A DNA stretch of 17,923 nucleotides. Source: Candidatus Woesearchaeota archaeon (GTDB lineage: Archaea > Nanobdellota > Nanobdellia > Woesearchaeales > UBA11576). The notes beneath the pieces were generated by a model that ran no database searches, was not told where the DNA came from, and saw nothing but the letters and a program-made list of their open reading frames with translations. The number at the start of each line of letters is the position of its first letter. The stretch's first letter is position 1. Positions 7,524 through 17,846 of the stretch are shown here, one piece after another. The stretch covers positions 1 to 17,923 of the forward strand of contig JAUVBP010000002.1 of NCBI GenBank assembly GCA_030591125.1. Reading direction: 5' to 3'. The position numbers were made by a program, and so were the translations under genes.

Positions 7524-7855
7524 GTAAGACCACAAGTTGACAACCGGATATGTGGACTTCGTCTTCATAGCTGAGGAAAGTCCGCCCACTTTTGCAGCAA
7601 CTCGTGGAAGCGAGGCGCGGAGACGCGCGGCAACAGCTCAGAAACGAAACCGCCTCAGGGCAGGATGATAGGTGCGAAGCCTTTCGCGAGAGAGGTGAGT
7701 TAACCCCTGGACGTTCCTGAAGGGAGGGATTAAACGGCTAGCCCTTGCTTGTGCAAGTCCTTATGGGCGCTAAGTAGAATGTCAACACAGGCTATCGATA
7801 TCCGGCTCGACCGGGTGTTTTGGGCCTGACAGAAGGCGGCTTATTGTGGTCTTAC
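7524..7855 (+). ncRNA. rnpB: RNase P RNA
   Basis: This is the catalytic RNA of RNase P, which removes 5' leaders from pre-tRNAs. The universally conserved segments are present in order. CR-I/P4 is GAGGAAAGTCCGCC near 7573. The AGTAGAATGTC segment lies at about 7773-7783. The 3' CR-V segment ACAGAAGGCGGCTTA ends near 7842. The ends are set by a perfect 12-bp P1 helix, GTAAGACCACAA (7524-7535) with TTGTGGTCTTAC (7844-7855), giving about 332 nt, consistent with an archaeal type A-like RNA. Downstream lies a T-rich stretch (TCTTTATTTATTCT) that probably terminates transcription. Several tRNAs in the window are potential substrates. Confidence 0.96.
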
Positions 7856-9220: not shown

Positions 9221-11710
9221 CTACTCGTTTATAATCTTAGCGGCATCGACCAGCCTGTCATCCTGGCCCATCTTCATCAGCCGCACGCCTTGTGTCGCAC
9301 GACCTATCGCAGATATGTTCCTGACAGGAGTCCTTATGATTATACCATTCTGTGAGATGAGCATGATCTCATCATCATCAGTCACAGACCTGATTGCAGA
9401 AACATTGCCGTTGCGTTCAGAGCAGATTATGTTCTTCACACCTACGCCGCCACGCTTTATGAACCTGTACTCAGATACGTCAGTACGCTTACCATAACCG
9501 TTCTCTGTCACGGTGAGCAGTGTCTTCTCATCCTCTGCACGCACCATCCCTATGACAATATCATCACCTTTCAGGCTTATGCCACGCACTCCTGCAGCAG
9601 ACCTGCCCATAGGCCTTATGTCAGACTCAGCGAAACGGATGGCCATACCATCCTTTGTCGCTATTATGATATTCATATTCCCATCAGTCATCACAACATC
9701 TATGAGCGCATCACCCTCGTTCACGGAGACTGCCCTGATACCGCCCTTCCTCGGCCTAGAGAATGCCTCAAGAGAGGTCTTCTTCACAGTCCCGTTCCGC
9801 GTACACATTATCAGGTAATGCTGGTCGTCAAACTCCTGTACCGGCACAAAAGCCCGGATGTACTCATCCTTGCCGAGCCTGAGCAGGTTGACTATCGCCT
9901 TGCCTTTTGCCTGTCTCGACCCCACAGGTATCTCATAGACCTTGAGCCAATACACCTGCCCTTTGTTCGAGAAGAAAAGCACATTTGAATGTGTCGATGA
10001 GATGAAAAGATGCTCGATAAAATCATCATCTTTTGTGGTGGCAGCGATTATCCCCTTGCCACCGCGTCCCTGATTGCGATATGTGTCCACAGGCAGGCGC
10101 TTTATGTAGCCCGCATGCGTGACAGTGACGACAACATCCTCTTCCTCTATAAGATCAGCTATACATATATCATCATCGTCTTCCATGCTTATCTCTGTCC
10201 GGCGCTCATCAGCATACTTGTCCTTTATCTCGGACAGCTCGTCTTTTATTATGCCCTTCACCCGCTCTTCAGAATCGAGTATCGATCTAAGCTCAATTAT
10301 CAGCTCCAAAAGATCCTTGTGCTCATCCTTTATCTTGACCTGCTCAAGAGAGGCAAGCTTCTGAAGCCGCATCTCCAATATTGCCTTGGACTGTATCTCA
10401 GTAAGGGAGTAATCAGCCATCAAGACAGACTTTGCAGTGTCAGCATCCTTTGACTGCTTGATCTTCTGCACAATATTATCTATGTCATCAAGAGCGGTGA
10501 TCAGCCCTTCAAGGATATGCGCCCGCTCCTCTGCCTTTGTCAGGTCGAACTGAGTGCGCCTCCTCACGACCTCTACACGATGACCGATGAAACAACTGAG
10601 CATATCGTGCAGGTTGACGATCCTGGGAGCCTTATCGATAAGACCCAGACAATTTATCCCGAAAGTCGTCTCCATCCTTGAATGCTTGAACAGCTGGTTA
10701 ATGACTATCTCAGGAGTAGCATCATTCTTCAGCTCTATGACGACACGCATGCCGTCCTTGTCAGACTCATCACGGATATCATATATCCCTAATATGTGCT
10801 TGCTCCTGACAAGATCAGCTATATGCTCGACGAGCAATGCCTTGTTCACCTGATAAGGCAGCTCATGGATTATTATCGCTTCCCGACCGCGGACAGTCTC
10901 GAAGCCGGTCTTTGCCTTGACCTTTATCTTTCCCCTGCCTGTAGCATAAGCATGCCTTATGCCCGAGAAACCTGTTATTATCCCTCCCGTCGGGAAGTCC
11001 GGACCCTTGATGTGCTCCATGAGCTGTTCAGGAGTCGCTTCAGGATCATCTATGAGAGCTATCGTCCCGTCAATCACCTCACCCATGTTATGCGGAGGTA
11101 TGTTGGTCGCCATACCGACAGCTATGCCTGAACTGCCATTGACCAGAAGATTAGGAAACTTACAAGGGAGCACGACAGGCTCCTTGAGCTCATTATCGAA
11201 GTTAGGCTGGAAATCAACAGTCTCTTTCTTGATGTCCTCCAGGATCTCTTCAGAAAGCTTAGACAGCCTGGCCTCAGTATATCTCATGGCGGCCGGTGAA
11301 TCACCGTCGACAGAACCAAAATTCCCCTGGCCTGATATCAGCAGGTATCGTAACGAGAAAGTCTGTGCCATCCGCACCATAGTGTCATAGACTGCCGAAT
11401 CACCATGCGGATGATACTTACCTATGACCTCACCCACAATCCTTGCAGACTTCTTGAACGGCTTGTTCGAGAACATGCCAAGCTCGTTCATCGCGAACAG
11501 CACACGCCTATGGACTGGCTTGAGTCCATCTCTCACGTCGGGTAAGGCACGGCTGACTATGACAGACATAGAATAATCAAGATAAGAACGCTTCACCTCT
11601 TCCTCAACTATCGTAGGTATTATACGCTCATCAGTATCTGTTTTCTGAGGCATGCTTCCCGCATTCTCTTCAGGTGTACTACCTGTTCCGTCATTGTTCT
11701 CTTCAGTCAT
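9221..11710 (-). CDS. gyrA: DNA gyrase subunit A
   Basis: This 829-residue protein is the DNA cleavage and wrapping subunit of gyrase, acting with GyrB to introduce negative supercoils. It has the winged-helix segment [11 protein letters not shown] (Ser and Asp of the quinolone region as in sensitive bacteria), the catalytic tyrosine in [10 protein letters not shown] (Tyr144), and the breakage-reunion core. A C-terminal beta-pinwheel follows with the GyrA box QGRGGKG (about 547-553), which marks gyrase rather than topoisomerase IV. ATG 11710 (MTEENNDG) is chosen. An upstream TTG would add 29 unconserved residues. gyrB is not adjacent: the upstream gene is a zinc ribbon. Bacterial-type gyrase occurs in several archaeal groups and is thought to derive from bacteria. 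Confidence 0.96.
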
Positions 11711-11974
11711 CCTGTACCGCTCTGCCCATGAATTCCCTACTATATCTGTTGTAAAATCTGTATTAAATCTATTGCGAAAATCACTTGAAAATCGCAAGAA
11801 TCTACACTAAAAAAATCCAGACCCTTTATATTTGTTTGGTTTTTAAAAGGCCCGTAGAGAGCTTGTGCTGTATGAATTTAAGGTTTTAGCGACCAAGAAT
11901 TCCGCGGTTAAAAGGGCTGGAAAGGTGCTTTGTCATGTATGTCAGTTGCAAGTCAATTGTAAGTCAATCATAAG
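11711..11974. other. Intergenic region upstream of gyrA
   Basis: No gene was seen in these 264 bp. The region holds two A/T-rich promoter-like elements on the minus strand, CAAATATAAAGGGT (11821-11834) and CCTTTTAAAAACC (about 11838-11850), either of which could serve gyrA. It also holds most of an 11-bp tandem repeat near its right end. Choice between the promoters cannot be made from sequence alone. Confidence 0.55.
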
Positions 11975-11983: not shown

Positions 11984-12145
11984 CAGCTTTTTCAGTATGT
12001 GATCCTTGACCTTGAAGTTCTTTCCACAGTACACACAGGACTTGCGCCTGTCAGCAAGGATCCTCGTATCCGTATGATACTTCATGTTGTTGCCGCACTT
12101 CGGGCAAAGAAGAAGAAAATAGAATTTTGGCAAGGTATCAAGCAC
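11975..12145 (-). CDS. Small zinc-ribbon protein
   Basis: This short protein of about 56 residues has two CxxC knuckles: CPKC at residues 14-17 and CVYC at 37-40, separated by 19 residues, with a Lys-rich C-terminus (KNFKVKDHILKKLPN). Such single zinc ribbons usually bind nucleic acid or act as adaptor subunits. A specific function is not recognised. There is no suitable ATG. A GTG at 12145 overlaps the scpB stop by 8 bases, and a TTG at 12133 lies just after it with GGGTG upstream. The longer reading frame further upstream overlaps scpB and is not credible. The context suggests cotranscription with scpB. Confidence 0.75.
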   Translation of the reverse strand: MLDTLPKFYFLLLCPKCGNNMKYHTDTRILADRRKSCVYCGKNFKVKDHILKKLPN

Positions 12146-13556
12146 CCTTATCCTGATCTTCCGCAGTCTCTTCAGTAGTTTCGGGAGCATCAGGAGTTTT
12201 GGAAGTATCCGGAGCCTCAACAGGCTCTTCAGGATCTTCTGACCCTTCCTGCTTGGCTGCCTTTTCCTGAGCCTCTTTATCGAACTGGCCAGGATATTCC
12301 TCAACAGGCATATCCTTATCCTTGCCGTCGGCAGAAGACTCCTCTACAGGTGCGCCCCTGTCCTCTACTCTGGCTCCTTCCTCGTCGTGCACTGCACCTT
12401 CTCTCTTCTCTGCTATCTCATCAGAATGATTTTCCTGTCCCTTGGGAGCTATGTGCTCCATAGAACCTGCGACAAACTCTTCAAGCTTAGGATGCAGATC
12501 GCGCTCAGGAAGAGCATCCTCATCATTCTCCTCTTCAGGTTCATCCTCTGCTATCAACTCCTGAGCAAGGCGTTTGGCTTTCGCTTCAGGAGTCTCTTCA
12601 GGAGTCTTTTCATCCTCTCCAGAAGCTTCATCACCACCAGTCTCAGCATCTTCAGCATCTTCAGTATCCGCGCCCTTTACAGTGCCTTCTTCTGCACCTT
12701 CTTCTGCACCTTCAGCAGGCGCTCTCTCACTCCCCTCAGCATCCTGACCAAACGCTTTTATTCCCGTCCCAGCAGCCTTTTCCTGCCTTGGTGGCGCATC
12801 ATTATATATCTCAACTTCTGCCCCTGTATGCGGCTTATGCCCTTCAGGAGGCACATCAATGTAAGGTTCAAGCTCAATCGCACCATCTTCGCCAGTCATG
12901 ATTGTCTTTTCCTCAGCCGCCTTTCCAACAGCCCCATCAGAATCTTCTTTAGCTTTTTTTCCAGACATATCAATCCCCTCCTGCGCATCTTCACCCTCAG
13001 GACCAAGCCGTTCCTCTTCCTTCTCGAACTCATCCACCTTCTTCTGGACAGCTGCCTCAACCTGCTTGAAGTCCTTGAACACTTCCTTGATCGCCTTATT
13101 GTCAGGCAGATCAAAATAATCAAGGAACTTCTGGGTCACCTTGACGAGAAAACTCCGTCCATTACGCTCTTTAGCGATAAATCCCAGACGCTCGAGCTCA
13201 GATATATGCTCATACGCCTTGTTGGTCCTCACTTTTATGACATCAGACTGCAACGCAGGCTGCTTCCATGCGATCACTGCAAGAGTCTCAAGGATCGTCT
13301 TGCTCAGCTCAGTATGCGGATTCACTTTCTGCACAAGAGAGAGGAAGCCCTCTTTGACAGTAAGTTTCCACCCGTCATCTTCCTCGACGATAAGCAGCGG
13401 ACGTTCAGCTTCCCTGTAATCAAGAATAAGATCCTTTATCGCCTCTTTCACAAGGCCAGGATTCTTCAGACCGAGCAATGACTGGAATTCATCCATGCTC
13501 ACTGCCCTGCCTGCCGCGAACAGTATAGCTTCAACCTCTTTTTTTATATCAGTCAT
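12138..13556 (-). CDS. scpB: Segregation and condensation protein B (ScpB) with long acidic tail
   Basis: ScpB binds the kleisin ScpA of the SMC complex and works in chromosome compaction. The first 165 or so residues match ScpB: EVEAILFAAGRAVSMDEFQSL, LSKTILETLAVIAWKQP and the second winged helix with KAYEHISELERLGFIA. From about residue 180 to the end at 472 the protein is low-complexity, rich in Glu, Asp, Ala, Gly and Pro, with a coiled-coil-like EFEKEEERL entry and no recognisable domain. ScpB is usually about 160-200 residues, so the tail more than doubles its length. ATG 13556 is chosen over a GTG at 13589 that overlaps the upstream stop codon. No ScpA or SMC gene lies in the window. 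Confidence 0.9.
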   Translation of the reverse strand: MTDIKKEVEAILFAAGRAVSMDEFQSLLGLKNPGLVKEAIKDLILDYREAERPLLIVEEDDGWKLTVKEGFLSLVQKVNPHTELSKTILETLAVIAWKQPALQSDVIKVRTNKAYEHISELERLGFIAKERNGRSFLVKVTQKFLDYFDLPDNKAIKEVFKDFKQVEAAVQKKVDEFEKEEERLGPEGEDAQEGIDMSGKKAKEDSDGAVGKAAEEKTIMTGEDGAIELEPYIDVPPEGHKPHTGAEVEIYNDAPPRQEKAAGTGIKAFGQDAEGSERAPAEGAEEGAEEGTVKGADTEDAEDAETGGDEASGEDEKTPEETPEAKAKRLAQELIAEDEPEEENDEDALPERDLHPKLEEFVAGSMEHIAPKGQENHSDEIAEKREGAVHDEEGARVEDRGAPVEESSADGKDKDMPVEEYPGQFDKEAQEKAAKQEGSEDPEEPVEAPDTSKTPDAPETTEETAEDQDKGA

Positions 13557-13585
13557 AGTGTAATGTTCTCTCGCGTAGTTCAATC

Positions 13586-14230
13586 TCACTTATTCTTCAA
13601 AGAATAAAGATCTTCTTTTTTCTCTATTATTCCTGCCTTCTCAAAAGTTCCAAGAATAGCGTCGACATTATCCGGAGGTATCCCCATTATCTTGGCGACA
13701 TCCGATCCGGAGCGAGGCTCTGCAAGGACAAAATGAAGGAAGTTCCTGATCAGCGTGTCTGTGTTCTTCTCTACCAACTGCGACTTTGCGACCTCATCTT
13801 TCAGCTTAAGGCCGATATCATGCATCTTAAGCAGGAAATCATTGAAGAATCCTGAAAGGAACCTTGCCTTGAGGATCTTTTCAGTAGGCTGCATTATCTC
13901 TACAGATGAGGGTGTGAAGTCAAAGAGGAACTTGGACAGTTCATCTACGCTACCGAACCAGATCTCCATCTCTGAGAAAGTCGAGAACAGTTTTCCCTTA
14001 GGCTCTGCCTCATAGGTCGACTCGGAGACAAGCTCTAGCTTATCTGTCTTGGCCACGCGGTCAGCTACAAGCTGGGCAGCCTCTTCAACATACTCCTTAG
14101 GAGCTCCGAGAATCTCGATTATCATCCGCGCAAGGACCTGACCTTTCCTGACCCGCTCACTATCAGTAAGCTTCTCTTCAGTCTCTTCTGTCTTTTTCTC
14201 TGTCTTTTTCTCGCCTGATTTTTCAGCCAT
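13586..14230 (-). CDS. Conserved archaeal-type protein with C-terminal winged helix, unknown function
   Basis: This 214-residue protein cannot be placed in a named family. After a charged Lys/Glu/Thr-rich start (about 1-30) it has a helical segment (RKGQVLARMIIEILGAPKEYVEEAAQLV). Next comes a mixed region with GKLFSTFSEMEIWFGSVDEL and FTPSSVEIMQP, then long helices (FLSGFFNDFLLKMHDIGLKL). It ends with a winged-helix-like segment from about residue 170 (GSDVAKIMGIPPDNVDAILG, then a FEKAGIIEK helix). It directly precedes scpB, where scpA sits in many genomes, but I see no ScpA motif. ATG 14230 follows a TATA box by about 30 bp, so the leader is very short. A role with ScpB is inference. Confidence 0.82.
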   Translation of the reverse strand: MAEKSGEKKTEKKTEETEEKLTDSERVRKGQVLARMIIEILGAPKEYVEEAAQLVADRVAKTDKLELVSESTYEAEPKGKLFSTFSEMEIWFGSVDELSKFLFDFTPSSVEIMQPTEKILKARFLSGFFNDFLLKMHDIGLKLKDEVAKSQLVEKNTDTLIRNFLHFVLAEPRSGSDVAKIMGIPPDNVDAILGTFEKAGIIEKKEDLYSLKNK

Positions 14231-17616: not shown

Positions 17617-17680
17617 ACAAGGATTTCTAGGATTGTACAGATGAGGGGGTGCCGGAGCGGTCAAACGGGCCAGACTCAAG

Positions 17681-17734
17681 GCACTTGAGTGCTGAGTGCT
17701 CATATCAATGAGTGCGATGAAGAACGTGTGGGTC
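17681..17734 (+). other. 54-nt intron of tRNA-Leu(CAA) at canonical position 37/38
   Basis: A bulge-helix-bulge motif is visible: helix CTCA (exon, anticodon loop) with TGGG (intron end, one G-U), 5' bulge AGG and 3' bulge TCA. An inner helix starts CAC/GTG. This is the standard archaeal intron site, one nucleotide 3' of the anticodon. Confidence 0.88.
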
Positions 17735-17766
17735 ATCTGCTGGCTTAGTGCCTACCAGGGTTCAAA

Positions 17767-17804
17767 ACAGTCGGTTACAATGAACCAGTAACCACCCGTG
17801 AAAT
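17767..17804 (+). other. 38-nt T-loop intron of tRNA-Leu(CAA) (position 59/60)
   Basis: Helix TTCA/TGAA is perfect, with 3-nt bulges AAA and ATT. The intron forms an inner stem GGTTAC/GTAACC. Cutting each bulge after its second nucleotide leaves T-loop TTCAAAT. The 5' splice context GGGTTCAAAACA is identical to that of the tRNA-His intron in this window. Confidence 0.87.
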
Positions 17805-17846
17805 TCCCTGCCCCCTCATATATTTTCATCTGGAGAAATGATTGAA

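Follow-up and report, generated by a model that had tools for sequence, protein, structure and literature searches.

The closest described counterpart of the locus reported here is the intron of euryarchaeal pre-tRNA-Trp (Haloferax; sR50 of Pyrococcus), which is located at position 37/38, carries C/D boxes and acts as a guide on its own tRNA at nucleotides 34 and 39 (accessible text of PMC7994747 and PMC11408192), giving Cm34 and Um39 (PMC7994747). The C/D boxes and the fifth-nucleotide rule are described in PMC6770171, the accessible part of which states that a symmetrical two-module RNP is essential in archaea. According to the accessible text of PMC7994747, separately encoded C/D sRNAs of Pyrococcus are also directed at the wobble position of tRNA-Leu(CAA); C34 of this tRNA is listed as a predicted site in P. 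furiosus, and several such predicted sites were undetected in the tRNAs analysed (accessible text of PMC7668247). Among DPANN archaea, the tRNA-Met intron of Nanoarchaeum equitans contains C/D boxes, and circularisation corrects the box order of the permuted circular sRNA24 of the same organism (accessible text of PMC3491384). Noncanonical BHB introns at position 59/60 and multiple tRNA introns have been described in Thermoproteales, ARMAN and Asgard archaea (PMC4090602, PMC4033280, PMC11291895), including Asgard genomes in which more than half of the tRNA genes contain multiple introns (PMC11291895). The α4 type of the splicing endonuclease EndA is described, in the accessible parts of PMC4033280 and PMC6379350, as restricted to canonical bulge-helix-bulge (BHB) motifs.

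The tRNA-Leu(CAA) gene analysed here contains a 37/38 intron that shares its position, its C/D-like boxes and its predicted self-targeting with the pre-tRNA-Trp intron. Unlike the latter, it belongs to a set found in tRNA-Leu(CAA), tRNA-Leu(UAG) and tRNA-Cys, and it has one D/C module and one guide, not two. The predicted target is that of the Pyrococcus wobble-base sRNA, whereas the guide is an intron of the target gene and not a separate gene. The N. equitans tRNA-Met intron is similar in its DPANN origin and in the presence of C/D boxes within a tRNA intron, and a circularisation that corrects box order is also proposed here; however, the tRNA is a different one, the accessible text of PMC3491384 gives no self-target, and the N. 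equitans EndA is an (αβ)2 enzyme, unlike the α-type found here. The second intron, at 59/60, resembles those of Thermoproteales, ARMAN and Asgard archaea, but occurs together with what appears to be a single α-type EndA gene, the class described as limited to canonical BHB motifs. In the titles and abstracts searched, a set with subscription papers mostly outside it, no self-guiding intron of tRNA-Leu or tRNA-Cys and no similar intron of Woesearchaeota was found.

The window, that is, the whole stretch of 17,923 nucleotides analysed, is contig C73 of a Candidatus Woesearchaeota assembly of 1.31 Mb that is 67% complete. Removal of the two introns (Table 1) from 17643–17818 (+) left a tRNA-Leu(CAA) of 84 nt. 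As the initial annotation had pointed out, this is also the length of the tRNA-Leu(GAG) at 1751–1834 (−), and the D loop and variable arm of the two are nearly identical. At the exon–intron borders of each intron, a BHB core was recognized in which 4 bp separate two 3-nt bulges. The H helix of the 37/38 intron is formed by CUCA (17675–17678) and UGGG (17729–17732), with bulges AG/G and UC/A and an h helix of CAC/GUG; that of the T-loop intron is formed by UUCA (17761–17764) and UGAA (17799–17802), with bulges AA/A and AU/U and a weak outer helix consisting of a C-G pair followed by A.C (a run of 1). These motifs predict junctions 17680/17735 and 17766/17805. The spliced product shows full pairing of the acceptor (7/7) and the T-stem (5/5), and a C.C mismatch at 27.43 is its sole flaw. 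The gene was listed neither by ARAGORN nor by Rfam nor by an RF00005 search of the genome. By nearest-neighbor energy, the cloverleaf with both BHB motifs (−45.8 kcal/mol) was worse than the unconstrained minimum (−65.6 kcal/mol). At the level of sequence, the predicted two-intron tRNA-Leu(CAA) was confirmed. Elsewhere in the window, an archaeal RNase P RNA was found at 7532–7847 (+) with 122.3 bits, an ScpB-like protein is encoded at 12138–13589 (−), and a DNA gyrase subunit A (NCBIfam), here in a DPANN archaeon, is encoded at 9221–11797 (−). The RNase P RNA, RpoD and ribosomal proteins mark the source as archaeal.

Table 1. Predicted elements of the tRNA-Leu(CAA) gene, in window positions
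Feature	Positions	Strand	Description
Exon 1	17643–17680	+	Acceptor 5′ strand, D arm, nucleotides 27–37; from the sequence and the spliced 84-mer
Anticodon C34 A35 A36	17677–17679		Within exon 1
Intron 1	17681–17734	+	Position 37/38, 54 nt; canonical BHB core
Predicted guide CUUGAGU	17684–17690	+	Complementary to A31–G37 of its own exon 1 (17674–17680)
Box D-like CUGA	17692–17695	+	GA at 17694–17695 supplies one side of the tandem G.A pairs
C-stem hairpin of the kink-turn	17696–17715	+	8 bp, GUGCUCAU/AUGAGUGC, loop AUCA; from the fold
Bulge and box C-like element	17716–17723	+	3-nt bulge GAU, tandem GA, A-U and G-C pairs; box C-like AUGAAGA at 17717–17723
Exon 2	17735–17766	+	Nucleotides 38–59 with long variable arm, 5′ part of the T arm
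Intron 2	17767–17804	+	T loop, position 59/60, 38 nt; BHB core 3-4-3
Exon 3	17805–17818	+	T60, T-stem 3′ strand, acceptor 3′ strand, discriminator A

To place the gene among its relatives, tRNA-Leu(CAA) genes of the order were collected with R1, an intron model, and by blastn. R1 matched 202 of the 352 genomes of the order and 106 of the 180 good-quality genomes. Of 134 tRNA-Leu genes, 119 were parsed as tRNA-Leu(CAA) by a simple parser that is not model-based, and 15 were excluded (14 lacked a CTCAA anticodon loop, and one was atypical). Two or three introns were present in 81 of the 119, a set chosen in a way that favors intron-bearing genes because it consists of R1 and blastn matches; 37 genes had one intron, 62 had two, 19 had three and one had none. 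The 37/38 intron was found in 118/119. An empty site for it is provided by L105, in which the anticodon loop is intronless. The remaining positions were 30/31 (59 genes), the D loop (21), 53/54 (5) and 59/60, for which the raw count of 11 became 10 after removal of L180 as misparsed; this removal shifts one gene from three introns to two and leaves the 81 unchanged. The statement in the initial annotation that multi-intron tRNAs are rare outside Thermoproteales did not survive this census, biased as it is, nor the Asgard data in the accessible text of PMC11291895. The intron near 30/31 is recurrent, and in several genes (L101–L104, L110, L111 and others) it has the common core TTTGG...GGTACTAAAC..TCCAA. 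L201 and L216 contain, in addition to the 37/38 intron, what looks like an insertion following TTAG in the variable arm.

A blastn search with the tRNA-Leu(CAA) gene against 59 genomes (its own and 58 relatives) yielded loci L090–L119, among which L091 and L092, from the same genus, were the best relatives. Both contain the 37/38 intron, and their T loop, TTCAAAT, is uninterrupted at the predicted junction of the second intron. With this empty site and the BHB motifs, the two introns, their positions and the junctions proposed in the initial annotation were all upheld, and the comparison showed that both are insertions into a normal tRNA. A clear 59/60 intron was found in ten of the 119 parsed genes, including the gene in the window. 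All ten retain 4/4 pairs in the H helix (TTCA/TGAA, or TTCG paired with a corresponding 3′ strand), are 23–46 nt in length and by eye have little in common beyond the BHB ends. Four further T-arm insertions exceeded the length accepted by the parser and were left unclassified; among these, the T-arm regions of L156 and L244 span 100 and 107 nt, and their ends resemble that of a 59/60 intron (CGAAAG/T). No kink-turn was seen by eye in the second intron of the window. We propose that the T-loop insertion is specific to the lineage and would carry no guide. It is somewhat unlikely that it is instead an old intron that was lost in G002 and G003 and not gained in the source lineage. T-loop insertions in the tRNA-Leu(CAA) gene of G001, a member of the same genus, where it follows TTCAAA, and in the tRNA-Leu(UAG) gene of G008, a member of the same family, would suit such an origin, but the scarcity of clear cases and the restriction of sequence likeness to the BHB ends argue against it.

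A second alternative concerns the function of the gene itself. If the T-loop insertion were not spliced, the locus could be a nonfunctional copy or an artifact of assembly, and another tRNA-Leu(CAA) would serve the cell. The incompleteness of the assembly, the C.C mismatch and the failure of the tRNA finders to report the gene are compatible with this, but we regard it as highly improbable in view of the BHB core at the insertion, the nine other tRNA-Leu(CAA) genes with 59/60 introns and all four H pairs, the otherwise intact exons with their complete acceptor and T-stem, and the lack of a second tRNA-Leu(CAA) among the own-genome matches listed. The best three of seven own-genome blastn matches were the gene itself, the tRNA-Leu(GAG) and a tRNA-Leu(CAG) at C126, and R1 gave one own-genome match; as far as these matches and a 67% complete assembly extend, no other complete tRNA-Leu(CAA), the finding that the initial annotation had named as contrary to its reading, was present.

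Candidate genes for splicing and guided methylation are present in the genome. A single gene exceeded the cut-off for PF01974, and it encodes an α-type EndA (as judged from a 67% complete assembly; a diverged β subunit, or one encoded in the missing third of the genome, may exist). Across the 59 genomes, PF01974 matched at E ≤ 1 in 58 and over the cut-off in 57, with exactly one such gene in 55 of the 57. The best match of the EndA was the N. equitans α subunit (3iey_A), the insertion of which it does not have; at that site its length is that of Methanocaldococcus jannaschii EndA (1a79), with most of which it aligns. Since both BHB cores are canonical, the two introns do not conflict with an α-type enzyme, and the suggestion of the initial annotation that a broad-specificity enzyme is needed was not borne out. 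Also present were an RtcB gene, adjacent genes for fibrillarin and Nop5, and an L7Ae-family match over the cut-off (L370; G000:C121:3332-3595) that contains one in-frame TGA.

A kink-turn combines tandem G.A pairs with a 3-nt bulge, and an element of this geometry is predicted within the 37/38 intron (Table 1); the initial annotation had noticed neither this element nor the self-complementary guide. We examined 110 loci, of which 107 were parsed as tRNA-Leu(CAA) with a 37/38 intron and three were unparsed; the intron measured 40–59 nt in 105 of the 107. The order of the module is 5′-guide-NUGA-hairpin-NAU-GA. A loose search, which demanded GA/AA, an NAU bulge and GA/AA and allowed a short hairpin, passed 105/107 introns (L214 and L219 failed); this result is weak on its own, because 1328 of 5350 shuffled sequences (25%) also passed and because the NAU bulge had been required. 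When a C-stem of at least 3 bp was demanded, 101/107 introns passed versus 271/5350 shuffles (5%), and the strict contiguous form was found in 93 of the 119 genes versus 111 of 5950 shuffles (1.9%). Box D is mostly NUGA, and the box C-like element is AUGA followed by A in 79/105, not RUGAUGA. Inspection of the tRNA-Leu(CAA) introns revealed one C/D module and no second C/D or C′/D′ module. Given one module and no symmetrical pair, we regard the element as a putative C/D-guide-like variant and not as a standard archaeal C/D sRNA. The only Rfam match at the locus in a search up to E = 10, SNORD10, had E = 5, far below the cut-off, and was discarded as providing no evidence.

The predicted guide, which precedes the D-like box, matches the anticodon loop of the same gene, and 17687, the fifth nucleotide before the box, pairs with C34. 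For this gene alone the evidence is modest (a 7-bp helix, with P 0.07 when all targets are considered and 0.0075 for nucleotides 34 or 39). Among the relatives, the six bases ending 1 nt before the D-like box form 6/6 pairs with nucleotides 31–36 of their own exon in 73/105 genes and five or more in 88/105; in other registers, no gene reaches six pairs and at most five genes reach five. The top target by the N+5 rule (longest helix) was nucleotide 34 in 89/105 genes with ties counted and in 84 without ties, versus about 5.2/105 in which shuffled guides would be expected to equal that score at either of nucleotides 34 and 39; these statistics come from related sequences, and guide-bearing introns had served to construct R1. 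By family, 35/41 included a gene with 6/6 pairs and 38/41 a gene with five or more. Nucleotide 31 and the guide were found to change together, C31 in L227 and L230 being matched by a guide G and G31 in L109 by a guide C. Among strictly anchored genes, the guide leaves nucleotide 31 unpaired in 10/93 and nucleotide 35 in 19/90. A universal match was rejected, as 17 of the 105 genes have fewer than five of six pairs and 3/41 families have no gene above four.

The RpoD of the source genome matched Woesearchaeota SURF_58 at 51%, an archaeon at 55% and, most closely, a bin labelled Methanosarcinales at 58%, and it points to a DPANN archaeon, probably of the Woesearchaeales. R1 was also run over the nine genomes behind these loci, one of which was matched (E 0.004). 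The matched genome (JAFCBX010000023.1; L010, L368) is the bin labelled Methanosarcinales, and the label looks wrong. Its tRNA-Leu(CAA) intron (L368) reads UUGAGU-A-AUGA followed by a short hairpin and contains the same guide.

The same kink-turn was found in the 37/38 introns of tRNA-Cys from the source genome (L008) and eight relatives and of eight tRNA-Leu(UAG) genes. Here the guide upstream of box D is complementary to exon 2 and to the final two nucleotides of the intron. In the tRNA-Cys of the source genome (L008:1501-1617; G000:C117:1829-1945), this complementarity extends over 9 nt, with G39 at N+5. Nucleotide 39 was the top N+5 target in 9/9 tRNA-Cys genes (one tie with 37) and in 7/8 tRNA-Leu(UAG) genes (L266 prefers 43). 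In all 17 introns, guide positions −5, −6 and −7 form Watson–Crick pairs with the last intron nucleotide, nucleotide 38 and nucleotide 39, respectively. The pair forms were A-U (5) and G-C (12) at −5, U-A (15) and G-C (2) at −6, and G-C (10) and C-G (7) at −7; some of the 17 genes are close kin, so that the independent changes are fewer than the rows. An eighteenth gene, the tRNA-Cys L295, fits by eye and shows a third form, C-G, between −5 and the last intron nucleotide. The last intron base lies in a BHB bulge and covaries with the guide, which favors the view that the guide pairs with unspliced RNA, and the span of these guides from the 3′ splice site to nucleotide 39 implies action on the unspliced precursor. 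The spacing on the C side varies from 7 to 10 nt in tRNA-Cys (by eye), and the register to box D is fixed. In the tRNA-Leu(UAG) gene L115, which is outside the eight, the 37/38 intron contains no kink-turn under the criterion used, and four tRNA-Cys genes are intronless.

Applied to a tRNA-Trp intron (L356), the same procedure placed C34, a known target of the Trp intron, at N+5. Among the 40 distinct intron-bearing ARAGORN calls from the source genome, G002, G004 and G013, only two passed the strict form of the kink-turn, the tRNA-Thr L350 and the tRNA-Trp L356, so that the element is not general in these introns; ARAGORN misplaces the intron of the source tRNA-Cys, which the scan consequently missed.

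These data bear on the main alternative, in which the gene is an ordinary two-intron tRNA, the kink-turn alone is the conserved feature and the guide match is a by-product; the hairpin and UUGAGU would then be kept for folding, as a long kinked helix that presents the BHB motif, or as a guideless L7Ae site. The guide strand could instead pair with a 3′ segment of the intron, a cis helix of 4 bp or more being possible in 62 of the 73 full-match genes and in 28 of the 32 others, and the kink-turn persists where the guide match is lost: the 17 genes with fewer than five pairs keep it, some of them with compensated cis stems (for example L236 and L215, by eye). Against this, 11 of the 105 genes, including the one in the window and its genus mates L134 and L135, have 6/6 pairs and no cis helix of 4 bp or more, and the guide keeps a constant register to box D whereas the spacing on the C side is variable. 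Furthermore, the tRNA-Leu(UAG) and tRNA-Cys guides have as their partner exon 2 together with the two nucleotides that end the intron, and compensatory changes occur at three positions; this pairing excludes the anticodon stem and would thus be odd as a splicing structure. The two predicted targets, 34 and 39, are both known sites of the Trp intron. Weighing these observations, we consider a purely structural role unlikely, and the 37/38 intron is likely to be a one-module guide for the wobble base of its own tRNA, akin to the tRNA-Trp system.

We therefore favor, as the probable reading of the sequence data as a whole, a two-intron tRNA in which the 37/38 intron is a one-module C/D guide for Cm34 and the T-loop intron is guideless. 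EndA would cut both BHB motifs and RtcB would join the exons. The D box, hairpin and C box of the 37/38 intron would fold into a kink-turn for L7Ae, to which L7Ae, Nop5 and fibrillarin may bind, and the guide on nucleotides 31–37 would direct fibrillarin, in cis or in trans, to 2′-O-methylate the wobble C34. The linear intron has D ahead of C, which would correspond to a D′/C′ arrangement; circularisation of the excised intron would give the order stem-C-guide-D-stem. The introns of tRNA-Leu(UAG) and tRNA-Cys would contain the same module aimed at nucleotide 39 beyond the 3′ splice site, which would imply that it acts there before splicing.

As a tentative and still doubtful extension, these introns may form a self-guiding class in at least four tRNAs (Leu-CAA, Leu-UAG, Cys and Trp) of this DPANN order, mostly with one module, that methylates nucleotides 34 or 39 of its own precursor. 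Because guide pairing and the BHB motif with the anticodon stem are mutually exclusive, methylation at nucleotide 39 would on this reading have to come before splicing and would act as a checkpoint that places modification ahead of intron removal. If the guide function itself is correct, intron-encoded tRNA methylation would no longer be confined to tRNA-Trp but would include three or more further tRNAs, and a single C/D module may suffice in archaea. The occurrence of multi-intron tRNAs together with what appears to be only an α-type EndA is relevant to the view that enzymes of this class restrict intron diversity. A guide function would explain why the 37/38 intron recurs across many families and the T-loop intron comes and goes, and, with its rule that N+5 is 34 or 39, it would bear on why archaeal tRNA genes retain introns.
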